DNA from: Datnioides undecimradiatus
Taxonomy: Eukaryota > Chordata > Actinopteri > Lobotiformes > Datnioididae
Assembly (NCBI GenBank): GCA_008933995.1
Contig: WARS01000046.1
Coordinates: 248,001-312,000 of the forward strand
DNA: 64,000 nucleotides
Reading direction: 5' to 3'
Shown: positions 7,140 to 42,094 of the stretch, piece after piece
Layout of the letters: each line of letters starts with the position of its first letter
Position numbering within the stretch: position 1 is the first letter of the stretch
The notes under the pieces: generated by a model
The model's database searches: none
What the model was told of the DNA's origin: nothing
Seen by the model: the letters and a program-made list of their open reading frames with translations, nothing else
Position numbers and translations under genes: made by a program

Positions 7140-10100
7140 ATGGCTGAGGACGTGGCCGTGTCGGAGGAGACCGTAACAAGTGGTCTGACTCTGCTGGTCG
7201 ACGTGAGCAAGGTCCTCCTCGAGAAAGCCAAGCAGGAAGCAGAAGGTAGGACTGATTGGGAAGAAGGGCGCACGTGTCGTGTCAGACTTCATTGAGAATT
7301 TGAAAGTTTTAATGTTTTTAGTCGCAAAGAAAAGTAAACACCACGTTGGAAATTCATTTTAAGTTGAGTGAACTGTTTTGTCCCCATGAGTACTTCGGCA
7401 CACAGAAGATACAAACATCACTTCCTGTTATGCTTTAATAATGATGTGCTTTGCTGCCATAAACGTGTGTTTACACGGGATCGAGGCGACTGTAAGAAAA
7501 ACGTAAACCAGTCATAAAAGTCAAATATTTACCCTAAAACGTTTTCCTAAATAGATTATATCCACGCCGAATTTAAGAAGAGACCATACTAATTCAGTGT
7601 TAATGTTTATTTTAGTTTTATAACATAAGTATTGACCCCAGTAAGCACAGAAACATAAAAATGCATGTAATTCAAGAGAAGTCCGTCGTTGCGCTTTCAA
7701 TACTTAAGGTAAAAATTTAAAATCTTTAAAATCAAATTGAAAAATATTCTTTAAAGCAGCGGATGCAGGTATTATCACTCTGTTAACCCATTTCAGTGAG
7801 GCTGTGTGTTAAGGCGAACCACATGTAACACAGTTATCATGACATATAATAATAATAATTCACAAATCAACTTTTGAGTGTTTCACAAATTGGCCACAGC
7901 ACGTGCTTCTTGTGAACCGTTAAAACACATCGAGCCCCTGGATTAAACGGCCCTCTGGCATGAAGGTGGTGTAATGTAATCCCTGTCACGCCTCTTGCCG
8001 ACACACTGACACTGCACAAATCAGCTTAATCTCTAACTATGCTCCTTTGTTCTCGCACAGACTCCCTGGAGAGTTTTGTCCCGCATAAAATCACCACTCT
8101 GTTCGGCCTGATCACGGCCGGAGCGCAGTTCTACAAAAGGTGAGGTGCTCCCAACACCTGCGGGATCACGGCATCGTTTGTCTGTTTCAGTGGCTGAAGC
8201 TCCTCTGGGTCAAACGTCTTGTCTCTCAGTGTTTCTGTATTTTTATACTGTGACGTGGTCGCGTTTTGTCACTGTTGTGCAGCCTTGGAGTGAAGAAGAA
8301 GAGTGAAGCAGAGGCCACCTGGCAGAAGTTTTATCAGTAAGTGTATAATTGTACATATTTCCCATGTCTGTCCATCCATCTTTTCCTAAATCATTAAACT
8401 TGGCTCATAAACCCTCCTCTCTGCTTCACAGAGACAGCTCCAGTCACTGTTTCATTATAATAAATCCACATTTTGATGACATTTGATCATTATTTATGAC
8501 TTGTGTGTGTCTTTCCAGCCACGCGGCAGTGAGAGAGCAGGTAGAGGAGCTTCTGCAGCTGGAGGTCTGTATGTGTGAAACCTTTCATTTTGAGGTTTTG
8601 CACGTTATGAATTAAATTCAGCTCCTGTGTGTTTACACAATTAATCAGATTCATACACACACTGACAAAATCCTGCAAGAGTCACACAATCACATCTCTT
8701 AGTGAGTAAAAGCAGCAATACCACAGTGCAGAGAGTCTGTTACTAGGTAACCACGGTAAAAGTATTAGTAATTATTCCATTATCAAGAGTAAAAGTACTT
8801 ATTATGCATTATTATTATCCTGTTATTCAACTGTAATTATCATATGCAATAACACGTGCATCACTTTTATGCAGCAGCTGCTACAGGCGCTCAAAACCCT
8901 TTATCCTAATCTGTAACAATGCATTATTGATTTTTATTTTTAATCCAAATCTGCAAAGTAACTAAAGTTACCAAGTAATTGTAATGGAGTAAAAAGTACT
9001 ATAAGTAATATTTCTCTCTGAATTATGGTTGAGTTTAAGCGTAAAGTAGCAGAAAATGTACTTTAACATTGTACTGAGGTACAGTACATGAGTTAATGCG
9101 ATGTGATACGATGAAACCCACTTGCAGTGATGAAATGCAGTGTGATAAATAAATAAATGCAACAAACATAAACGAGTTTACATGGAAACGTGTAGTAAAA
9201 CTAGGCTGAATGTTGGTGCATGAGACATTCGAGGGTCTGTGTCATTAAAACATCTGACCAAAGTGACTTAAAAGACTAAAGCTGAGCTAAACGTTGACGC
9301 TTTCTGATCTCTGTAGCTCACGTTTTGACATTTAATCATACATCACTGTTGTTTTGTTAATGTGTGTCCCCGCGTTTGTGTGCGCAGGGCGAGTGGGACG
9401 CCTTCCTGGAGAGTGTGGACGAGGGTCTTCAGACCACGGACGGGCAGCTGCGTGGAGGAAAAGTGGCGGACAGCCTGAGCCCCGAGGCTGCGTTCACTGA
9501 CGGACGCAGTGGGAAGTGAGTTCACCGCCCGAGCTGTAATGTTTGTGTGTGAGGGGAAACACTAAACGTCTCATCGTTTTATTGTGTCGTTGTGGTTTCT
9601 GTGTGTGTTTTTACAGGAGCGTGACTCTGGGTCACTTCCTGGATCAGGGTCCGAAGCTGCTGCTGGTTCTCATCCGACATTTCGGATGACTGCCGTGACG
9701 AGACCACGTGGCCGAGCTGGAGGCCAGCCGGGTCAGTTTAGCGCCAGTCTGCGCTTCACTCTGTCCCTGCTCCGTCACTGCAAAACTGCATTCGATTAGG
9801 AAAACGTGTTACTGAAACCCTAAACCTAACCTCAAGAACTGACCGTGAGTTAAACCCCTCCCCCAAAAACCACGATCGTCCAATCACAGCGTAGCAACCG
9901 CTGTCTGGTACTTACACTCACTTGAGTATTTCCATTACAGGCGTCTTTATACTCGACATTTCAGAATTAAACTTTTTATTCCTTGAAATTTAAATTACTA
10001 GTTACTTTGAAAATCAAGATTTTTGCATAAATTAAAACAAATTATTAGCTCATTAACTGATGAGTTCATATAAACTCTTAGAAACCCACCACTGGTGAAG

Positions 10101-11183
10101 CTACTAAAGCATTTAAATGTTGCAAACATGCAGTATTATTAACTATAATAATGACTTAACAGATTGAAAGTGGCTGTTTGGAGCGTGGGATACTTTCACT
10201 TTTGATCATTTAAGGGCTTTTTGTTGATTATTATTTGTTTTATTTTATTTTAATGAACCATGAACTCAACAGCTAAATGCTAACGCTCGCTAGTTAGAGC
10301 ACACACACACACACAGAAGTGTAAAACAAGTGACGCCGTTTTGGTTTTGTGCCAGATTCGTTCTCCGCCAGGGGCAGCGACGTGCTAAGCTAAGCTAACT
10401 AGCTGCTGGATGTAGCCTCATTCCTTCTGCGCAGACACGAGAGATGCGTTAATCTCTAACTTTCAGGAAAACGCGGTCATGAAGTTTCTCCAAAACCTTC
10501 ATGTATTCCTTTGATGCTGTGACTCCTACGTCTCGGTTCTGTGGCTGCAGATGGCGCCAACGTTTCCTCTCCAGCCTTCACTCAGCCTCGCTGCCACGTC
10601 TCATTTCCTTTAATACGAAATGGATTAAAGGGAGTCAAGAGGCCGGAATTCTTCTCGTAAACAGTGTTGGTATTTAACCTTCTGCAGTTTTGTCTCCGCG
10701 CAGGCTGACCTCAAGGCTCGGTCGGTGCAGGTCTTGGTGGTCTCCTTCGGCGGCGTGGAGGGAGCCAGGCTGTGGCTGGAGCAGACTGGATGTACCTTCG
10801 ACATCGTGCTGGATCCAGAGAGGAAGGTCGGGATGTGTGAATTCACCTTAATCCTAAATGACTAAAACCCTGAGCTCTTAAATCATTCTTAAGGGAATTC
10901 CATTCATTTCCAATTAAACCGCATTGTCTTCATATTTATAATCAGCGTTGGGGCACAGGTGCATGGAAATGAAAGAGGTGATCTGTGGAAACACAGATGC
11001 GCTGCAGGAAGCAGGGGATGCAGCAGCTGTTTGATGATGTGTCATTAAAGCTCGCGAGCCTCCGAACGAGTCGCTCTGCAAAGTCGAGCTCCAGATGTTA
11101 GCAGCTGTGAGATGGAAACGAGGGCAGCCAACCAAATATGGAGACAGAGGATTTTCCACATGCCACAGGAGCAATCGTCAATC

Positions 11184-11218
<35 letters not shown>

Positions 11219-12425
11219 CTGAGTCGTACCGGCGAATGCGTCTTTACGTCTGAGTCCGAAGTGGACGCTTTGCTCCTCCGTGTGCTTTTCGATGATCGCG
11301 TCTCCGTTGTCTCGCCCCCCGCCGCAGACGTACCGCAGCTTCGGCCTCGGCTCGTCCTACGCCAAGGTGATGAGGTTCGGCTGCCTGCTGCAGTACTCGG
11401 AGTACGGGGCTGTGGACAGAGACTTCCCGGACGTCCCGCCTCACCTGCTGGAAGACATCTACCAGGTACACGTGGATGGACCCATTCAGTGCTGAAATAT
11501 GAGCATTTTCCTTGTTGCCCCACTTTTCCGTGCCGGTCACTGGGTTTTTTAGTCGTTTTGTGTCCCATTATTTAGTTTTATGTCTCCTTGTAGCCTTTTT
11601 TGTGTCCTTTCTAGTAATTAAATGTCTCTCCGTGGTACTTTTGTGTCTCCTTTGAGCACTTTTGTCTCCTTTTTTAGTAATTCATTGTCTATTTGTGGTA
11701 CTTTTGCGTCACTGTGAGGTGTTTTTCTGACTCTTTGTGGTAATTTTGTGTTTCCTTTTCATCATTTTTTGTCTTCTTTTAAGTACTTAACTGTTTCTTT
11801 GTGGTAGTTTTGTGTCTTCTTATAGTAACCCCATGAAACTTGAGTTAAGTGAAAATCCAAGAATCTAGTGAACACAACAATTAAAAGTCGATTTAAAGAG
11901 TCGTAATGTTAGTTTTAGTTACCTTCTGATTAATTGTCCTACCCTAACTGATTTAGGAACATGCAACATTTCAGATTAATTAGTTAAATGAATGAAATAA
12001 TGGTCCTGGGTCTCAGCATCAGATGGTAATGCAGCAAATGTGTTCTGTCGTGTAAAATTAGCATTGCAACGGTGTGAATTCACATATTTCCAGAGTTAGG
12101 AGCCAGCCGGTGGTCCTGCCGTTTTAAATAAAAGTGACTTTGGCTCCTAAATGCCTGGTTGCAATGTGTTTGGCCTGCAAAGCAAAACACAATTAGCAAG
12201 TCGGCTAAAACGTTAAACAGAGCTGCAGAATCTGGTAATAATGATCTGAGTGCATGTAAAGGGACGCTCAGTCACGTGATGCAGCTTCACTGTGTTTTCC
12301 AGATGGGAGGTGACTTTTTGCTGGACGACGCAGGGAAGGTGCTTCTCTCCCACCCGTGTAAAACCCCTCTGGACAGGCCGACGGTGAAGGACATCCTGCA
12401 GGCCGCTGACCCAACGACGCCGTGA
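7140..12425 (+). CDS. selenol: Selenoprotein L, two selenocysteines in a U-x-x-U motif
   Basis: Nine coding exons: 7140-7245, 8061-8139, 8283-8336, 8519-8564, 9388-9515, 9617-9731, 10704-10826, 11328-11465 and 12303-12425 (stop TGA 12423-12425). All borders are GT/AG and all phases join, giving 303 residues if TGA at 9687-9689 and 9696-9698 are read as selenocysteine (residues 162 and 165). The local sequence is RHFG-U-LP-U-RDHVAELE, the U-x-x-U counterpart of the C-x-x-C of peroxiredoxin-like (PRXL2/AhpC-TSA-2) thioredoxin-fold proteins. Both reading frame and similarity to that fold (VQVLVVSFGG, TYRSFGLGSSY) continue for three exons past the TGAs, so these are not gene-ending stops. Residues 1-150 form a helical N-terminal region. 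SelL is known from fish and aquatic invertebrates and is thought to form a diselenide; its substrate is unknown. The start has a good context (gtcATGGCTG). Confidence 0.94.
9687..9698 (+). other. selenol: Two selenocysteine TGA codons (U-x-x-U)
   Basis: In-frame TGA codons at 9687-9689 and 9696-9698, separated by CTG CCG (Leu-Pro), in exon 6. Upstream residues are HFG and downstream residues are RDHVAEL. The same frame continues to a normal donor after 9731 and into exon 7. An automatic gene finder would truncate the protein here or skip the exon. Confidence 0.93.
11186..11215 (+). repeat. (TG)n microsatellite
   Basis: About 14 TG units in selenol intron 7. Confidence 0.9.
11540..11835 (+). 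repeat. Degenerate minisatellite in selenol intron 8
   Basis: Recurring T-rich phrase of the form TTTGTGGTA-TTTTGTGTC-TCCTT-TAGTAATT, repeated about five to six times with many changes and a loose period of roughly 50-60 bases. No coding potential. Confidence 0.7.
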
Positions 12426-12504
12426 AAGAGAGACCGAGCGCCGCTGATTGTTGGGTTGAAATGCTTTTAACGCACCACTGACACCACAGAGGAAGAGCAG
12501 CTCT

Positions 12505-12575
12505 TTGATTCACGTTTATGAGGTCACGTCTCGCACTCGTGGCGCCATGAAGAGGCGTGACTGATGCCGAACTGT
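12505..12575 (+). promoter_or_regulatory. Candidate SECIS element in the selenol 3' UTR
   Basis: Starts about 80 bases after the stop codon. Core quartet strands are ATGA at 12518-12521 and TGAT at 12562-12565. Between them a 10-bp helix pairs 12523-12532 (GTCACGTCTC) with 12552-12561 (GAGGCGTGAC), with one G-U pair. The apical loop 12533-12551 begins GCAC, so the usual AA (or CC) on the 5' side of the loop is missing; the loop contains an AA only on its 3' side. Below the core, pairing is weak (GTT with AAC). Position, core and helix fit a SECIS; the apical motif does not. Confidence 0.55.
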
Positions 12576-12652
12576 AAAGCAAAGACAGATGATCTTCTTT
12601 GGGGTGTCAATGCGCTGTGCAATGACTGTTTTTAAATTAAAGGTACCATATG

Positions 12653-12658
12653 AATAAA
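12653..12658 (+). terminator. Polyadenylation signal of selenol
   Basis: AATAAA about 230 bases after the stop and about 90 bases after the candidate SECIS hairpin, so the hairpin would be inside the mature 3' UTR. Confidence 0.6.
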
Positions 12659-12659
12659 A

Positions 12660-14182
12660 TTATACATATAAATCTAAATGTAGTTTAACTTTAAAGATAA
12701 ACACTGACAATGTTATCCAGATCTGTACTGTGAGACACTTTGGCACTTCTCTAGGTTTGACCTTAAAGGTGCTCTGAGCTGGTTTTGTCGCCCTCTAGAG
12801 GCCCTGATTTAAGATTTCACCCAGAAGTCCTGCAACACGATGCTGCCACTGCCAACTTCATGAAGCTTATTACCGGGGTAGAGATGAAGAGAAACCTCTG
12901 CTGCTGCATCATCTTTCCCTTCCAATCTCACCTTTTTACTGCAGATTCATTTTATATTAAACCGCACTTTGACATATTGAGAATTTATACGATCGCTGCT
13001 ACAGATCTGATTTTTCATGTCTGTCGATAACGCGAGGATTTACTGTAATTTAAAAACGGCGTGGTGAATGTTAAAATGATGAGCATCAGACCTTAATGCC
13101 TGGGATGTGTTTAAAGTGTCATGTACCAAGTGCCACCATTAAATACCTGGTCAGATTTGTAATCTTGTTCTCTTATTATTCAACAGATCGCTCCTGATTT
13201 TAAAGAAAAACTGCTAATTGAAGGTTTTAAGCTTTTGATTTTTCCTCTTTTGTTAAATAAAAACAGGCTTAAATGAAACAAAAATCTATATTTGTCTAGT
13301 AAAGGAACAAAAAGGTATAATTTTGGTATCAGATGTTGTATAATTGCTGTACTGCCGTGCTGATGAGGCTAATCATAAAGTAACGCTGCAAACCATGTCA
13401 CCTTTTCATAAGGAAAAACATTTATATTCAACGTTTTATGCACAACTTTCTCCTTTTACACTCTGCAGGGCTCTCAGGAGACATTTACACACACAGTGAT
13501 GGGGAGTCATTTTGTGGGGTTTAGAGAGGGATTCGGGCAGATTTGAGGCTGCAGCTTTTAAAAACGTCAGATCATGTTGAAGTGTCAGTTAATCACACCG
13601 CCGGTGCCAGACTGTGAGAAAATATCCTCAGATCAACAGAGAAGTGCGGCCTAATTCCTCTCAAACCACAATCCACTCTGATTCAGACCTTCAAGAGGTC
13701 CAGCATGTGCTGATGGCGAAGAAAGGGCCTCCAGCTTTTCAGATTTCTTGTAAACTTTGAACAAATATTTGAATTCCAGGCGTGAAATCACCGCAGAGTC
13801 CTGACTGGTTTACATTCATATCACTGCAGCTGCATGAATAATATAATATTTATAGTACTAATAGAATCTGATAAACGTCTTATTCAGTACTTTGTGGAAT
13901 TAAATAGCAGTACATGGATTTGTGCGCATTTGAAACTTATGCTTCACCTTAAAAATCTACCATACTGTGTACTCTGTGCAACAATACTATGCTAATCACA
14001 CACACACACACATATATATATATAGAAATTACATTAAATTGCATTTATACATTTCTGATCCAGAATTCAAGACCTCCTCACGTTTGAGTACAACTAATCC
14101 AGGTTCGTTTAAAACGTCTTTCAAAGGGAAATAAGTTATTTGATGGTATGATGGACTTGTCATGTTTTCTACTGAGAACACA
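12660..14182. other. Intergenic region between convergent selenol and clec11a
   Basis: About 1.5 kb without a supportable gene. It contains a short (CA)n(TA)n tract near 13999-14025. The two flanking genes point toward each other, so both 3' UTRs end in or near this interval. Confidence 0.6.
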
Positions 14183-14795
14183 TTTAAAGGGATAATTCGA
14201 GTTTTTCTTAAACAGTGGGGCTGTTTGAGGTACTTATGCATAGTCAGTGTCAGCAGCGGGGCGAGTATCGGTGTAGGAAGCAAAGCAATGTACTGCTCAA
14301 TGTGCCTTAGATACTTTAAAAAAACAACATCAGTTTAAGTGTACACTGCGTTTTGAATATTTAAAACACATCATCTTGATGTCAGACAGTCATTTCTGAT
14401 GGGAAACTGAAGCTGTTACACTCAAATTCAAATCCACCAGACTCCTTTGGCGAAAACAGCTATTCTACCGTGCAGAGCGCAGGAGTTGCTGATCTACTTC
14501 TGCCTCAATCGGTTAAGATTTTTTTTTTAATGTGTGACTTTGGTGAATCTGAATGAACTTTGTACAACACTGATGTCACACGATATCATCAAACTAACCA
14601 ATCGAGGCAGTGGTAGACCAGCAACTCCTGTATCCCATATCATGCTAAGGTAAAGCAGTAACATACGTTTTGCTGCTGACCCATCACAGCAGTGCGTTGC
14701 TTAGCTTCCTGCACCAGCACTCCTGCTGCTTCTCCAAACCGGGAGATAAGTACCTTGTACACTCCAACTTTAAAAAACAGGAACTATCCCTTTAA
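14183..14795. mobile_element. MITE-like element with ~50-bp terminal inverted repeats
   Basis: About 613 bp. The left end reads TTTAAAGGGATAATTCGAG and continues to GAGGTACTTATGC. The reverse complement of the right end reads TTAAAGGGATAGTTCCTG and continues to AAGGTACTTATC. The inverted ends therefore match with mismatches over about 50 bases and finish in TTAA, the target of several cut-and-paste superfamilies. There is no internal open frame of note. A diverged relative lies in a ttc13 intron, and a short fragment resembling the left end (GGGTTTTTTGAAGTGGG) lies near 45077-45115. Confidence 0.75.
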
Positions 14796-14827: not shown

Positions 14828-17544
14828 TTAAAGTGCCACCCTGTCATCAAACTCGCACAGATAGTTCATGGTCCGATCGCAGTAGTGGTCCCACCAGTCC
14901 CCATCGTCCGACGACATTGCCACACAGTTCTCCCGCCGCCCCCCGTCCGGCTGGCTGGACAGGAAGTGTTTGCGCCACTGGAAGTATGAGACTCGGGTCC
15001 CATCGTCGAAAAGATACATGCCCTCGGATCGCAGGTCGTTGATGCCCAGCCAGACGGGCCAGTTCCCCGGGTGGAAGAACGACTTGACGTAGTCGGCGAG
15101 GGCCTCCTGCTCCTTGCGGTCTCGGGGCATCGCCATGCGGCCGCCACGTTCCAGGCACTTCCTGGATGCTCCAGCATAGTCCTCGTAGCTGTTGTACACA
15201 AGGTAGCATTTATATCCCAATCTGCGTCCCTTCTGGCAACCTAGGAAGCAGAGAAGAAGAAGACAGATGCTCTTTAGTGGCCAAACGCTCAGCTATGTTC
15301 ATTAGCATGTCGCTAACTCTGCCAGCTTTTCCAATGAAAACAGCCGTCTCCTGCACCCAGAGCTGTGGACACCAACCCAGGAATGCTCTAAATAAAACCA
15401 AAACAATGAGCTGAAAGACCCTAAAAGGCACCAGAGGACTGAGGGGAGCTGCAGACCTGGATTATAATTTAAGCCCAGATGTGATGAGCCTCCACAGATG
15501 AACTGCACAGGGAGAGTAAAACCAGGCCAAACAGAGTCGGAGCAGGAGTGGCCACACCTCGTAATCACTGTTGTCTTTAATCTCAAGGGCTCTAACGTGC
15601 TACCGGTCAAACATAGACTGGAGGCAGAGGTGGAGTTGACAAAAGATTGCGTGTCCTTTGTTTTTCTCTGTCATCATGCTTGAAGATGGGAGATCCAAGG
15701 TAAATAACCCTGATACCTTCCAGTCTTCCTGTCTCCTTGCGGTTGTCCTTGCTGTGCTGGTAAACCTCCCGAATGCTGTCCTCCAGCTCCCCGACTTTAG
15801 CTGCCGACAACAAGGAAACGTGAAAAGTCAGTGCATCTTTCTCATTTTACCATTTTTAAACAGTTTTTGGGGTTGTGGTGGAAAAGCGAGCGTCTCACCA
15901 TCCATCCTGGTCAGACGGTCCATCAGCTGGCTGACTTTCACATCCAGAGTGTAGTGACCGACATTCAGCTTGTGGATGGCCTGGTCCATGCTGGCCAGCC
16001 TGGACACTGAGGAAGAGAACATGGTGAATCCAGCAGGATATGATGGAGGATAAAAAGGAGGAGAGCAGGAAAGAAAAAGCAGATGTGTTGCATTAATGAA
16101 ATATAATACTGTGTGACGTTAAAGCACACAGATAAGTCTCGTAGTTATTGGGTTTATATGCGATGCAGGTATTTTCTGCAGCATCGCAATAACATCTGTC
16201 CATTTTAAACCTGGATTGGAGACGAACGTGGCGACTCACAGACATAGTTGTATGAGTTTTCAAAGTCTGACACGATGCTGGTTGGCTCCGGTTCAGGCTC
16301 TGGAAGAATGTCAGGGACGTCCCCCCTTGCCTTCTTCACCTCTGGCACTGATGCCTGAAACAGAGAGAGAGAGAGATCCTGATGTCACCATTTCTCAGAT
16401 GCTTTCTCCACCACATTTAAGTTCTGTTAGCTTCTCTGCTCCCCCCCCCCCACTACTAATAAAACACAAACCTCAGATGCACAAAACCAGCTCATTAGGC
16501 TCGTACACATGTACACATCTGGACCTGGCTCCTTCTGAAAACCTCAATTAAGTCATTTTGTGTCATTTCTGTTCTCGTTTACTGCACAAAGTCTGTGAGA
16601 AGAGTCTCCCAGGAGCTGCAGCAAACGGCCCTGCTAATGAAACGGCTGTTAAATCCTCAGCCTTATGTGTTTTTCCTGACATGACTGTGATGTAACGCCT
16701 CTCTAACAAGGAACACAAAGCAAACACACACTTAGACTTGTCGCGTCGTCCTCAACGATGTGAACTGCACACACGGACAGCTTGTTTGCAGTCGTGCACA
16801 GTATTTACCTCTGGTATTCAGCCCGCTTACTGAAGTAAAAGTGCTAATATCACACTGTTAAAACGCTGCCATGCAAGTAAAAGTAAAATAATAAAATAAA
16901 AGTACTTCCTGCAGACATGACTGTTATATACATTGTTACAGTGAATTGTTATGACTTGTGTATTAATGTAAAAGCAAGATTTAAACTGAAATTAAGCCTA
17001 TTTTGAACTATTTTGCATAAAACTCCATTTACTGATTATTTTTATTATTTATATTAATATATTGATATCATATTATTTTATTATTAAAAGTTAAAGCAGC
17101 AAATTAAATGGTCACGTTTGAAAAGCTGCACCCACTGGATGCTTTTGCATAAAAACTGACTCGGTCGATCACCGTTTCTGCCGCTCGACTGCTTTATTAA
17201 TCACCTCAGCTGGACTTGTACATACCTTTGGGCACTTCAAATGATAACAAAGCATCATATTTTATGTATTATCTTTGTAAAGTGATTAGTAACTGAAGTT
17301 GAGCTGCAGGAGGAGTGAAAAGAACAGAGGTGTGTGGAAAGTGTCCTGAAAAGAGAGTATTCAAGTACTGCAGACTCTGATACACACCGTGGTCCTCACA
17401 CTGTTTGTATCAACATGTTCCCTCAGTGGAAGAACCTGCTCCTCTGGGTGCATCATCACTAACACCAGTCCTACCAGTTACACCATTATTATTTCGTCTG
17501 GTGTGTGTCATGATTCACACTTTCTGCTCGGACAGACTCTCCCG

Positions 17545-23480: not shown

Positions 23481-26400
23481 TTACCAGTTGTCCAGGAAGT
23501 CGAATCCAGTCTTCAGGATGCTGCTGCTCGTGTTGAACTGAGGGGTGGGAGGGGCAGAGGATGGAAGAGAGACTGTGTTAGACACTGTCAAGGCCTAAAG
23601 AGAGATCAGTGCATCATGATTAGCCGTTAGATACAAACAAATTCATTTCTGATTTCTGATTTTGCTGCCGTTAAAGTGATGAAACCTCTCGAGGTTTCGC
23701 CCGTGCCCTTGTTAGCACGCCTTCACGCCTAACCTGCTTGGTTTGGTGTGTTTAGACTGGTGTAAGAGCCGTAAATCACACAGCCGGGCGGAGACTTTAA
23801 GTGGCTGGTTTGGTCCGGTTCCAGCTGGTTTCAGTCAATGTCTTCCTCACATTACTGATACAAAGAGCTACAGCCTACATTTATTTTTCTTCATCTGGGC
23901 TAAATGAGATTGGACGGGGTTATCTAGAATGATGGCAGCTTTGAAGCCCATCGATTCTGAGGTTGGGAGCTCACCTGAGCAAAAGTAGGGCTCGTAGGTG
24001 AAGCCTCTTCCTCTTTCTCCGCACTGACGGGGTTGCTGGAGGGTTTGGACAGGATGCTGGAGGAGAACACTTCATCCACGGTGTTGCTGACCGACGGCAG
24101 GGTGCTCTGAGATCGCTCCCAGCCTGCAACTGACGAGGACACGCTGACAGGCGGCGGTGGGTTTGGCGAAATGGAGATGGATGCCGGCGTTGCACTAACA
24201 GCTGTGGGGACAGGCGGAGGGGGAGCAGGGGGTTTGGGTGCTCGCTGCTTGGTGGACCTGGTGTGAGCCGGAGGGTGGGGGTCTGCAGCCTCGGGCTCCT
24301 TGGGGGTGACAGAGGTCTCCTGGAGAAAAACGATCATGTTCACTGTTCCTCAGAACACAAAGAGCAGACGCTGAGGTTTTAAAACTGTCTGGAAACTGCT
24401 TTTCACAAAGAGGGATTGTTGTTGTTTACGACAGGCGATGTAGGCGGTTGATGAGGCCGTACAATTTAAAAATCACAGCGACACAAACACCTAGAAAAAG
24501 CAGAAACGGAAGAACAGCAAAGACGAACAATCACTGTGTTTTTTGTGGCTGCATCCACCATCTGCTTCTCCAACACTTGTGGGGGCTTCACAGGCGCCAG
24601 TCATCTGAGCTTCGGGCTAGATCCTATTTCAGGACGCGTGGCTCGATAAGACGAGCGACGAGTGTTGGGGAAGGAACTTGCTTTCAATCTGTTGTTTGTT
24701 CGCAACTATACGGACCAGAAATGCGACGCTTGTGCCAAAACACAAACAAAACTATTTTGGGCAGCTGTAACCTGGGCTGAGGCGCCACCGGAGAGCAAAG
24801 AGCACGGGTAGACTTCAGGGCTTACCTGTCGGAGGTAGGAGGGGAGGGATTTCTCTCCTTTCTCTAGGGATTTGATCTGGCTGGGGGTTAGGGACTGGAA
24901 GTCGGCCTGCTCTCCCTCAAGCCTGGACCTCTCGGCGCTGATCTTCCAGAAAGACGACTCTTCCTCTGGCTTCCGACCCTCGCTGGCAGATACCTTCGCA
25001 ATCACACGACAACACGTTCACTTTACAGCTCCTTCCCTCGTTTTTTAAATCCAAAATACACCAGTGAAGACAGCTGCAGCATACGTCTCATCGTACCTTG
25101 GCTCCTGGTGCACTCTTGCCAAGCTGGCTGGCATGAGGAACCTTCGCAGCCTTTGACTCAGCCTGTGAGGCTGAGACTCCCTGGTCGGCCGCGCCTGATG
25201 TCAAACTAAACTCCAACTGACTCTGAAAGACGAAGGCAAAGTCAAAACTTAACGGAGCCCCGCTCTACAGGCAGGTGGAAAGGTGTCAGTGGAAAATTAG
25301 ACCACAGGATGGATTTCTGAAAACGTAGCCGGTGACAAAAGTTGCTGTTCAATACGATATGTCGATATGTCAAATGTCTTCCCAGGTGTCGGTGTCAATC
25401 TTTCATACCTTTGTTTCCCAAGAGAAGGGGGCAGAGTGCTCATCTTGCCAGGTGATATCCTAAACAGGAACACACAGTTTAGTTACAGTGTCACCAAATA
25501 CGTAATGACAAGTGAATCTAGATCTAGCCATAAATTCTATTATATATTAAAACACGTTAGCATAATTAGGCAGATGACATACAAACTGACACGACCATAT
25601 CGTCAGGGGACTGTAATTTAGTTTAGTAAATGCACTGAACATTAAAAGCACTGCTGCCTCAGGCCAAGCGAGTAGATCACATCACTCCAGCTCACAATTC
25701 TTAAGTGTTGCTACATCTCAGGCCCTCAGATCGCCTGCTTTCTGCTCCCTGAGTCAAAACTAAACATGGAGATGCAGTGCTCAATTTTTAATGCACCTTC
25801 TGAAACAAGCTCTCTGAAATCTGATGTGCTGCTGCTCTGGGCTCTTCTCTTAAATCAAGTCTGTAGAGTTCACTGTTTGCCAGAACTGAGGGGTTTTTGA
25901 TTCATGTCTTATGCTGTACTATAAATCTGTCGTACTCAATTCAACTCTTTCCAGTTTCTTTTAAAATACAGACTTTGATAAACTTGTCATGCTTAATGTA
26001 GCTTGTACTGTACGAGAACGGCTACAGGACTATTGTTTATAACACTATTAATAACAAGTCAGCTAGCCAAAACCAAATATTTTCTCAGATAACCCATATC
26101 CAATAAATTATCATAACTTTTAATGGGGGTAAACAGAGGCCTAGTTTTGTTGTTATGGTTACAGCTGAATTCTATTGCAGCTACAGACGTATCAGGTAGC
26201 CGGTGACGCTGGTGACGTTTACCTACGTATTTCAACGGCTACGTGGCTAGTTAGCAACCATGACAACACAGGATTTTCTGACCTCTTACGACAACCACGA
26301 AACTATTTAATACAAAATAAATTCTAAACGAATGAATAAAAAACGAGTATTGAGTACCTCTTCCCCAAAATGAACTATCTTCTGTCCCGTCTGAATGAGC

Positions 26401-26663
26401 AGTTTCGGGTAACAGACCACTTCTTCACGCTCGACTCTGTGCATAGCGTATCGGGCTCGGATATGGGGATCCATCATCCAGTTGTCGATGGCGTTATCTT
26501 GTTCCTGTGGCGTCATTTTCTCCCAGGTCGAGCCGTGCTTGGCTTTGATTTTCTCCCTCTCCTGCATTATTTTCTTCGCCATGGAGTTGATGGAAGAAAA
26601 GTACTCGAGCTTCTTTTCCTCCATCCTATGAGCGTCGAGCCCCGCCATGGTTGCGGCGGCCAT
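23481..26663 (-). CDS. C1orf198: C1orf198 homologue (uncharacterised conserved protein)
   Basis: Six coding exons on the minus strand: 26663-26358, 25459-25409, 25222-25097, 24993-24826, 24319-23975 and 23537-23481 (stop TAA). Every intron lies between whole codons with GT/AG borders; 350 residues (the human protein is about 327). Conserved blocks are [20 protein letters not shown] near the N-terminus, [20 protein letters not shown] across the first junction, [12 protein letters not shown] followed by [18 protein letters not shown], and the C-terminal [12 protein letters not shown]. The fifth exon encodes a low-complexity Pro/Ser-rich stretch ([14 protein letters not shown]), the main length difference. 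No signal peptide, membrane span or catalytic motif is visible, and the function is unknown. The upstream ATG of two (26663 and 26648) is taken because it has the stronger context (AAGATGGCC). Confidence 0.93.
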
Positions 26664-26785
26664 CTTTAACTGCTAACCAGCTGTTGTTGTTGTGAGGAAA
26701 TAGCGGAAGTTGCTCGCCGCTGTGTGGGGAGGTGGGCGGGACTTCTGTCAAAATGACATGAATGTGTGTCAGTGGCGCCATCTTG
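26655..26785 (-). promoter_or_regulatory. Candidate YY1/ETS-type promoter motifs of C1orf198
   Basis: On the coding strand the start codon is embedded in AAAGATGGCCGCCGC, close to the YY1 consensus that often overlaps start codons of TATA-less genes. A second YY1-like motif (CAAGATGGCGCC, minus strand) lies about 115 bases upstream, and GCGGAAGT, an ETS-like motif, lies at about 26703 on the plus strand. Confidence 0.4.
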
Positions 26786-27512: not shown

Positions 27513-28928
27513 TCAGGCTGTGCTGTGACCGGCATCATGAAGGCCAACCTTCTCATTCTTTACCAGACTGTCACTATTTAAACGTGGGTAAATGGCAATA
27601 GCAGTAGACGGCAGTGTTTTAGACTTCCTCCTGGAGAAGCGAGAGCAAACCAGGTAGAAGATCTCTGCCACATTGAGCAGAAGAGAGATGCAGGACACTG
27701 CGAGCATGAAGAGGATGAAGATGGTCTTCTCCGTGGGTCGAGACATGTAGCACTCCACAGTGAAGGGACAAGGGGCTCGGGAACAGACAATTCTTGGGTC
27801 CATGACAAACCCATACAGATAATACTGCCCCACAATGAACGCTACCTCCAGAATGATTCTGAACAATATGGAGGTCATGTACGTTCCCAGAAGGTTGCCT
27901 TTGATCTTGACATGCCCTTTCTCGTCAGTGTACTTTGGAAATTTGACGATCTCACTCCTGGAGTGGGACTGCATATACGCCCTCATCTTATTTTCTTTGT
28001 GGATAACATGGAGGGCGTGACCCAGGTAGATCAGCGTTGGTGTCGAGACGAAGATAATCTGCAGGACCCAGAATCGAATGTGCGAGATAGGGAAGGCGTG
28101 GTCGTAGCAGACGTTCTTGCAACCGGGCTGTTTTGTGTTACAGATCATGTTCGACTGTTCATCACCCCACACCTGCGATGTTCAGAGTAGACATTAATAT
28201 CAATATATATTAAATACAACAAAAGAACTGAGCACTGACTTATTTATTTGAAAATACAGGCATTTTATTTAGCTGAATTAGCCAAATTAGCCATCAGTGG
28301 TGTCAACATGGAGGTCTGTTATAAAATAAGCAGGGAAATTCTGTAAACAGAACAAGACAAGACTAAACAAGCAGAATGTCTCTTGCACAATGCATGCTGG
28401 GATAGCCTCCAGCTGCCGTGACTCTTTAGGATACCCATAAGGAGGATATCCACTTTATCCATTTTAGGATAGATAGAAGATGGATGGGCAGACCATTTCA
28501 AAAGATTAAGAAAAGATTTTTCATCTAATAAATTTTGATAGTGATATAAAATTATAATATTTATATTTATACAATGATCTAAGGTCTTATTACAGATATA
28601 AAACCCAGTAATTTGTTATGAAGCTGAATCCAGGTGTCACAGCTGATGTTGCTCAGGAGCTGTAGACCTCCATCTTGTCCACCAGAGGCTGTTATTTAGC
28701 TCAGAAGACTTTAACGGCTCGGGAAAAGGATTCAGAGATTCATCAGCTGGGTAAAATGCTGCAAAAAACCCTAAAGTAAGTGAAGTAAGAGAAAGAGACC
28801 TTATCTGCTCCAGCTCCGAGGATCATTATCCTGAAGATGAAAAGCACACTGAGCCAGACCTTCCCGATGACAGACGAGTGGGACTGGACCTTGTCCAGCA
28901 GAGACGACAGAAAACCCCATTCTCCCAT
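27513..28928 (-). CDS. Connexin (gap-junction channel), teleost Cx32.2/Cx28-like, intact
   Basis: Two coding exons on the minus strand: 28928-28800 (43 codons) and 28172-27513 (219 residues plus stop), joined in phase; 262 residues, about 30 kDa. It begins [18 protein letters not shown] as connexins do. Four membrane segments are visible. The first extracellular loop has C-x6-C-x3-C ([12 protein letters not shown]) and the second has C-x4-C-x5-C ([12 protein letters not shown]), both canonical. [13 protein letters not shown] leads into TM4 and the C-terminal tail is short. Six such proteins form a hemichannel that docks with a neighbouring cell. The coding intron falls between GAGADK and VWGDEQ, just before loop 1. 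It is the only intact member of three tandem minus-strand copies. The exact orthologue is not certain. Confidence 0.92.
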
Positions 28929-31751: not shown

Positions 31752-32489
31752 TCACACAGCTGGGAGCCAACAGACTGCAGGGTTTTCTTCCGCTGAGGTG
31801 AGTTTATGAAGTGGACGCCTGGACCCGCATCTGACCCTGGTACAAATCAGGTAGAACATCTCAATGACGTTGAGAAGCAGAGAGACCGCAGCCACCACCA
31901 GCATAAAGATGATGAAGATGGTCTTCTCTGTGGGTCGGGACACGTAGCACTCCACAGTGAAGGGACAGGGCTTCTTAGAGCAGGGGAACATGGGGACCAT
32001 GATGAAGCCATACAGGTAGTACTGGCCCACGATGAACGCACCTTCGATGATGATCTTGAAAATGAGCTGGGTCAGGTAACTGCCCAGCAGGTTCCCCTTG
32101 ATCGTCACCTTTCCCTTTTCGTCGGTGTATTTGGGCAGTTTGACTAGCCGAGCCCCACCGGGCTGGACAGCTGCCCCCATCTTGTTCTTGTGGATGATGT
32201 AGGCGGCGTGGCCCAGGCAGACTCCAGCGCCGGGCGTGACAAAGATGATCTGGAGGACCCAGAGGCGACAGAGAGATGGGGAAGGTCCAGTCAGAGTGAC
32301 GCTCACAACCAGGTTGAGGTTACAGATGAAACCCGATCGCCTGTTTCCAGCCCCAGACTTCCTGCCAGCACCCGCACTCCAGAACCATGATCCTGAACAG
32401 GAACAGGACGCTCATCCAGATCTTCCTAATGATCAGGAGTGGGGACTGACCTTGTCCAGCAAGCTTGACAGGAATCCCCAGCTCCCCAT
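31752..32489 (-). pseudogene. Connexin copy 2, intronless and frameshifted
   Basis: ATG at 32487-32489 opens with [14 protein letters not shown] and then meets a stop after a small indel. TM1 (IWMSVLFLFRIMVL) continues in another frame. The first extracellular loop is badly damaged: several small deletions, and the three-cysteine pattern is lost. From about 32260 down to about 31780 one frame is clean: [43 protein letters not shown], the loop 2 cysteines [12 protein letters not shown] and [13 protein letters not shown]. Near 31795 another one-base shift in GAAGAAAACC moves the apparent native tail (LKQNKLNMELENS, ending at a TAA near 31645) out of frame. No intron interrupts the position where copies 1 and 3 have one. 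Either a decayed retrocopy or a real gene with assembly indels. Confidence 0.8.
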
Positions 32490-40001: not shown

Positions 40002-42094
40002 TTAGCTTGAAGCGACGAGCACGCGTGATCCCAGAAGCCAAATCCTCTCTGGAATGAGTCTCATCAGGCCGTACTGTGAAGACAAACAGCAAATACAGAG
40101 CGATCATCATACGGAGATGTGCTCCACCCTCAAACTGACTTATTTTGTGCCAACCTGCAGCGTATGGGGCCAGTAGCCGGTGGTCCTGTTAGAGACGCCC
40201 AGGGTGGAGATGGCGTGGCGAGCATAGACCTCCGGCTTCGGTGCCAACCAGCCCCCTCTTGGTGATGATGTCGAGGATGATGGATGTTGCCCACCTGAGG
40301 CTATCTGCTCACACATACACACATATTGTACATCAAAGCACTGATATAAACGAAGCTACATATAATCACACTATCTAGTGACTCCACATATCACATGATA
40401 ATGTTGTTTAACTATATGAAACAAAGTTTAAGCAGTTTTAATCATTTAGTCCGCCCTGTTCATGTCACTGCTGGCAGCCAGGATAACAGAAAGAGCTTTT
40501 ATAACCTTCCTGAAAGCAGATTTACTGCAGGTCTGGCTGTGACTGATAACTCAAAGTTATATTGCTGTGAGGATTTGGTATTAGCATTAGGTATTGGATA
40601 TAAGGCCGAAAACCCCTGACACAACACTCGAGTTTCAGTAACGACAGAAAAATGATTTTCATCACTCATTTCTCCCAAAACATTTTCTCTGACGTCTAAA
40701 TACGATCAGTCGAATACAAGAGACTGAAATGGCTGAAAGTTCTGTTTAAATCAGGAACTATGTTGTCAAAGATCAAGATTATGAATCTGTCTGAGCTGGC
40801 TTTCAGTGTTAAGCCGATTTTTGGTTCGGCACTACAAATGCACTTGAGTTTAAAAACCCCAGCCCCGCTCGCTAATGGATATCTACCTGGAAGGGAATCA
40901 GACTTTGGACAAAGATCCCTTTGCTGCTGTACTCGTGGTGTAGAGCTCTTGAGAAGTGATCCAGATATCCCTGAAACGTCAGAAGAAGAAAAGAGAGAGA
41001 GCGTTACAGTCAGGATAGAAAAATGCATTTCACTGCTTGGAGATATTTGAATTAATATCTATAATATTTATTTAAAAAGATGTTTTTTTAAGACTACAGA
41101 TCTTAGAGCGTGTGCATGCGCAGGAGGTACTGAGAATCGGTGTTTTGTCTCACAGCGGAGGCAGTGAGTGTCACTCTTCCAGGCAGGGGTCTGCAACAAG
41201 TGCCCGATGATATATTGACCACCGCTCCCCGGCTGCGCTCCACCATCCCAGGCAGCACCAGCCGGGTCATCAGGGTAGCAACCGCGACGTTCTTATTCAC
41301 CAAATCCAAAAGGCCCTGCTCGGGCATTTCAATCAGGCTGTGAGGAGAAGCCAAAGACTCGTCCACGCAGTTCACCAGGAAGCCGATATCTTTGCCCCTC
41401 ATGGCCTCTTTGACGGGCTTGCTTGCGGCCTGGTCCAAGGAGAAGTCAGCGAGGACGACGACGGTTTCCACTCCGTAGCTCTGGGCGAGGGAGGCAGCGG
41501 TGTCTCTGACAGAGGTGTGGTCCTGAGTGACAAAGATGATGCTGATCCCGTGTCTGGCCAGCTCCTCTGCATAGGCCTTGGCCACAGGCTCTGATGCACC
41601 TGAAAGGCCAATATTTATCAAAGTCATGCCATGAAGAACAACAATGACAATATGGAACAAAGAACTACAACACCCTAACCTCATCTCAGGTTATCCTCAT
41701 CCTCAACCTCATTTTATGCTAGATACATAGTTTAGATCTGATTATAATTATAAGTGATGAATAAACTGAATTTGCTGAAATAAAACTGCTTGGGACCGGC
41801 TCTCCTCTGCCACCCATATCTACAGCATGAAACTCTCCCACTGTCTCTGCTGTGATCACCTGATGCGTCCTTACCATAAATAACAGCCCAGTCACCAAAT
41901 CTTTGGGTCAGCCTCTTACTCGGGATCATTCTTGGCAGGAAATGCACCCTGACCAGCGAGCAGCAGTCCTTAAGCAGGATTACCGCCCTGCTCGCTGTGT
42001 AAAGAGCACCGACCACGGCCAGGGCTTCAAAATAAAAACTGCACGATCGAGAAATTTCCCTGTACAAAAACTGAAAGCTGTCAACCGCCGCCAT
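40002..42094 (-). CDS. hsdl1: HSDL1, inactive hydroxysteroid dehydrogenase-like protein 1
   Basis: Five coding exons on the minus strand: 42094-41875, 41599-41154, 40970-40887, 40304-40155 and 40073-40002 (stop TAA); phases agree and borders are GT/AG; 323 residues (human about 330). It starts [18 protein letters not shown] as in human HSDL1; an ATG three codons upstream is possible. Family blocks: [76 protein letters not shown]. It is a short-chain dehydrogenase fold. Human HSDL1 is mitochondrial and considered inactive because the catalytic Tyr is Phe. Here the site is more eroded: the glycine-rich cofactor motif is GASEPVA (74-80), NNVG is NCVD (150-153), and the YxxxK positions are L218 and A222. 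Exon 4's first ~18 residues are poorly conserved, so its start is the least certain part. Confidence 0.9.

Follow-up and report, generated by a model that had tools for sequence, protein, structure and literature searches.

The window, by which we mean the whole 64-kb stretch of DNA analysed here, contains what we believe, with a probability of roughly 0.94, to be a functional selenoprotein L (SelL, SELENOL) gene of a fish: both UGA codons of its sixth exon would be read as selenocysteine (Sec), with one SECIS hairpin in the 3' untranslated region (UTR) and a diselenide redox centre in the product. In the mechanism that we propose, UGA codons 162 and 165 would be decoded by the genome's own tRNA-Sec, with a single hairpin about 500 nt downstream directing both insertions. 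The resulting protein of 303 residues would consist of an N-terminal extension and a peroxiredoxin-like (Prx-like) C-terminal domain, in which the U-x-x-U motif would form a diselenide/diselenol redox centre. By analogy with the published family, Sec insertion, the diselenide and an enzymatic role most likely apply here, and the hairpin is probably the SECIS element.

The gene lies on the forward strand at 7140–12425, and its nine exons, with every splice site (AG/GT) and the frame intact, join into a spliced reading frame of 912 nt. Its coding sequence begins with the ATG of exon 1 (7140–7245, codons 1–35, donor gtagga) and runs through exons 2 (8061–8139), 3 (8283–8336), 4 (8519–8564), 5 (9388–9515), 6 (9617–9731), 7 (10704–10826), 8 (11328–11465) and 9 (12303–12425), ending at the true stop, a TGA at 12423–12425; further along the same strand, an AATAAA at 12653–12658 is, by its pattern, a possible polyadenylation signal. 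The only stops inside this frame are the TGAs at codons 162 (9687–9689) and 165 (9696–9698), which yield the motif U-L-P-U. The initial annotation had described TGA-CTG-CCG-TGA in an exon with good splice sites whose frame continues for three more exons, and this description is borne out, the exon coordinates being exact: the four codons occupy 9687–9698, and their exon is bordered by AG (...tttttacag) and GT (gtcagttt). Its U-x-x-U motif also stands, although the second TGA comes three codons after the first rather than four, the pair marking the ends of a four-residue motif; likewise, the frame does close at a TGA in the last exon, but the in-frame TGAs then number three, where the annotation had counted four.

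Finding the 12-mer TGACTGCCGTGA is not in itself evidence, since it occurs at chance level genome-wide, with 45 copies on both strands of the 581 Mb genome against 41 for the reversed control. What goes beyond chance, to judge from sequence comparison, is where the TGAs fall: on the CxxC of a paralogue, and on TGA or Cys followed by Cys in bacterial relatives, with coding conservation downstream.

The founding description of selenoprotein L is reportedly that of Shchedrina et al. (PNAS, 2007). Among NCBIfam profiles (E up to 1), the window protein has a sole match, NF040769, "SelL-related redox protein", at 148.4 bits against a curated cut-off of 120, with about 135 residues lying ahead of the matched domain. 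Two Pfam profiles score over cut-off, PF13911 (AhpC-TSA_2; 53.6 bits) and PF00578 (AhpC-TSA; 29.6 bits), while solved structures yield weak thioredoxin-like matches only (best E 0.01). The U-x-x-U motif, the family profile and relatives carrying Cys or Sec at the motif together support the identification as selenoprotein L, an assignment drawn from the profile match and published descriptions of the family. Those descriptions give SelL as a Prx-like protein (PMC2398784) with two Sec two residues apart and a single SECIS, found among vertebrates in fish only (PMC3316567), and its Sec pair as forming a diselenide (PMC2397514, PMC12822975); the protein is also treated in PMC3473315. In sea bream, a transcript has been matched to a protein bearing the name selenoprotein L (PMC3418159), an indication that genes of this type are transcribed in fish.

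The genome also contains an intact paralogue, likewise of nine exons and 303 residues, in which C-L-L-C lies exactly opposite U-L-P-U, so that a Cys faces each TGA (contig C466, 3889–7291 of segment 12233500–12243400). This Cys paralogue passes the NF040769 profile at 138.6 bits. A genome search with the C-terminal part of the protein gave nine matches, four of them from the window gene, four from the one gene on C466 and one a chance segment; this last, a weak match on contig C328 (E 1.31), was dropped, being a single segment with no CxxC. The window protein and the paralogue are identical at 134 of 297 aligned residues; beyond the second TGA, the count is 64 of 133. Exons 6, 7 and 8 are of equal length in the two genes (115, 123 and 138 nt), exon 5 has a similar counterpart, and the GGDFLLDD block of exon 9 is kept in the paralogue and in bacteria. 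Intron phases agree at all nine exons, an agreement to be read with the support for each paralogue exon: exons 2 and 5–9 are backed by tblastn (exon 2 weakly), and visual inspection gave the positions of exons 1, 3 and 4, for the latter two with the aid of the lengths and phases of the window gene, so that the correspondence at exons 3 and 4 counts for little.

Over gap-free exons 6–8 after the second TGA, the window gene and the paralogue share 63/98, 66/98 and 32/98 bases at codon positions 1, 2 and 3, respectively (64, 67 and 33%), a pattern indicating that coding continues in this frame beyond the two TGAs, under selection at the protein level. We used these counts in place of dN/dS because dS against the paralogue is saturated or undefined (NG86: dN 0.45 and dS 5.6, saturated, after the UGAs; dN 0.55 and dS undefined before them). 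The initial annotation had named, as an outcome that would speak against a selenoprotein, a frame closed at the first TGA with unconserved exons beyond it; what we find instead is a downstream frame conserved relative to the paralogue.

We also scanned bacterial and archaeal genomes, as a sample rather than a census, with two peptide patterns derived from the proteins of the window gene and the paralogue, obtaining 115 pattern matches, nine of which encode a relative. In seven of these nine genes, a single in-frame stop, in each case TGA, occupies the first position of the motif (UxxC), and the other two encode CxxC; the second motif position is Cys in all nine. The three bacterial relatives that were scanned with NF040769 all pass it (164.8, 147.5 and 120.6 bits). 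The best tRNA-Sec match reaches 54 to 72.5 bits in the seven genomes with a TGA; in the two with Cys it is 49.2 bits, which barely exceeds the cut-off of 47, and 41.7 bits, which falls short of it. It should be borne in mind that the model matches all 14 control genomes, five of them over cut-off, so that scores near the cut-off mean little. The UxxC SelL-related genes (L030, L031, L033, L034, L036, L037 and L038) occur in planctomycete, deltaproteobacterial and gemmatimonadete MAGs. Among viral contigs, the 386 pattern matches included no relative. The earlier proposal of a SelL with U-x-x-U where related proteins have C-x-x-C thus finds agreement in the NF040769 match, in the C-L-L-C of the paralogue, in the bacterial UxxC and CxxC forms and in a SECIS-like, if atypical, hairpin in the 3' flank.

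That hairpin, our SECIS candidate, occupies 12518–12565 on the forward strand, starting 92 nt past the stop codon, and was characterized by its fold, a descriptor and a covariance model. It folds into helix I, an ATGA/TGAT core, a helix of 10–11 bp (10 bp perfect), a four-base bulge, 5 bp and a four-base loop; in SECIS elements, the helix between core and apex measures about 9–12 bp. The GA/GA core of a SECIS (ATGA / TGA) is present around the helix, but the unpaired AA (or mammalian CC) expected apically is absent from the hairpin, which has GCAC there. The folding z-score is modest (−1.87), with 9 of 200 shuffled sequences equally stable. Rfam at gathering scores finds nothing across the whole window and, at E up to 10, no SECIS over 12400–14500 and 12426–12760. 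A strict descriptor (ATGA or GTGA, nine perfect pairs, TGA), composed after the hairpin had been seen, matches a single place on both strands of the window, namely the hairpin, and 3 of 3000 dinucleotide-shuffled UTRs (12426–12680). Only 1 of 11 other SECIS candidates of the genome passes this descriptor; allowing one mismatch raises the number to 8 of 11, but at the price of six places in the window.

Less biased than the descriptor is a covariance model, R1, that we built from these 11 other candidates of the same genome. With filters off, R1 ranks the hairpin best in the window at 18.9 bits (window-wide E 0.015, R1 E-values being rough), followed by a next best score of 12.7; with default filters over the window, it misses the hairpin. 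At the paralogue locus, the best R1 score is only 13.1 bits, at a site upstream of the paralogue gene, and the strict descriptor has no match in the paralogue's 3' flank. All 11 of the other candidates carry AAA, which is favoured by the Rfam model used to select them. L021, of the same genome, is similar in shape to the hairpin (8 bp, then a bulge of four bases, 4 bp and a loop of four bases), its bulge reading AAAA where that of the hairpin reads GCAC. An apical AA is described for nearly all vertebrate SECIS elements, CC taking its place in some SelM and SelO genes of mammals (PMC3316567). In the spliced mRNA model, 509 nt separate the second TGA from the hairpin, above the published minimum UGA–SECIS distance of 51–111 nt (PMC3316567). 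We conclude that this hairpin probably serves as the SECIS, albeit in an odd form. For the fuller proposition, that a single SECIS with GCAC in place of AA, neither AA nor CC, directs both Sec insertions beside a persisting nine-exon C-x-x-C paralogue of SelL, we see an even chance.

The genome of the window also encodes candidates for the wider selenocysteine machinery. Its best tRNA-Sec match scores 78.1 bits and is accompanied by twelve weaker ones, two of them over cut-off. Matches to the SECIS_1 model number at least six over cut-off and at least eleven at E up to 10 (five of these under cut-off), counts that are lower bounds, since scoring covered 150 of the 13,428 candidates from the first look.

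The GCAC of the hairpin is also what might be seen in a SelL gene starting to decay, in which the frame is still good, the apical AA has disappeared from the SECIS and translation now halts at codon 162. Such a history would fit with the failure of Rfam SECIS models to match at the hairpin, and the intact Cys paralogue could have replaced the function of SelL. Against this, nothing in the nine exons, their splice sites or their frame has degenerated, and the hairpin has retained both its ATGA/TGAT core and a perfect helix of 10 bp; moreover, the two apical bases may vary, as illustrated by the CC of some mammalian SelM and SelO elements (PMC3316567). We therefore regard incipient decay as improbable. 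More doubtful still is a conventional gene in which the TGAs are bypassed at the transcript level, through loss of exon 6 in splicing or through use of a different frame in it: exon 6 does have one other stop-free frame, but this would run into an exon 7 frame holding a stop, and skipping the exon, whose 115 nt are not a multiple of three, shifts the frame in silico to a stop after 192 residues. It is, besides, the frame with the TGAs that is conserved in the paralogue and in bacteria, and we consider avoidance of this kind very unlikely.

The existence of a Cys paralogue might also suggest that the gene really encodes a Cys protein and that its TGAs arose through faulty sequencing or assembly. 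That explanation, however, needs two independent errors three codons apart, precisely at the redox positions, in a gene that has a SECIS-like hairpin downstream and belongs to a family described in the literature as carrying two Sec with the same spacing; we give it almost no weight. A functional selenoprotein L gene with both UGAs read as Sec remains our preferred explanation.

Several other features were noted in the window, all on the reverse strand. Downstream of the SelL gene, and thus on the strand opposite to it, lies a C-type lectin domain (14828–15292; PF00059), followed by a DUF4706 domain (26307–26672; PF15797) and two connexin reading frames (27513–28181 and 31752–32411; Pfam PF00029). 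A short-chain dehydrogenase frame (41103–41690; PF00106) presumably resembles HSDL1.

As a new orthologue of the published SelL family, a status that is well supported, the gene is a real but expected find; its mildly novel points are the hairpin loop and the Cys paralogue. In their passages on SelL, published accounts (PMC3316567, PMC2397514, PMC3473315, PMC2874816, PMC3418159, PMC12822975, PMC2398784 and PMC7539508) make no mention of a Cys paralogue in fish, which may nonetheless have been described elsewhere; PMC8881744 has nothing on SelL, and PMC13188914 does not name it. Ordinary gene annotation tends to break selenoprotein genes of this kind, and for SELENOE, SELENOL and SELENOJ taken as a group, the share of Ensembl cases with a good annotation is reported as under 1% (PMC12822975), which makes such gene models useful corrections. 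Here, a SelL gene is added with its complete coding intron–exon structure, and the departure from the apical AA, together with the Cys paralogue, may help in asking which bases are important in a SECIS and what advantage two Sec offer over two Cys.

Placed beside known systems, the window gene resembles selenoprotein L in encoding a Prx-like protein with two predicted Sec two residues apart, and differs from it in a SECIS candidate without the apical AA. With the NF040769 family it shares the same domain, but the nine bacterial members that we found are UxxC or CxxC, none of them UxxU, and their frames span 179–277 codons from stop to stop, whereas the window protein has an N-terminal stretch before the domain. 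The Pfam families PF13911 and PF00578, which are peroxiredoxin-like, match the window protein as well, but they are broad and not specific for SelL.
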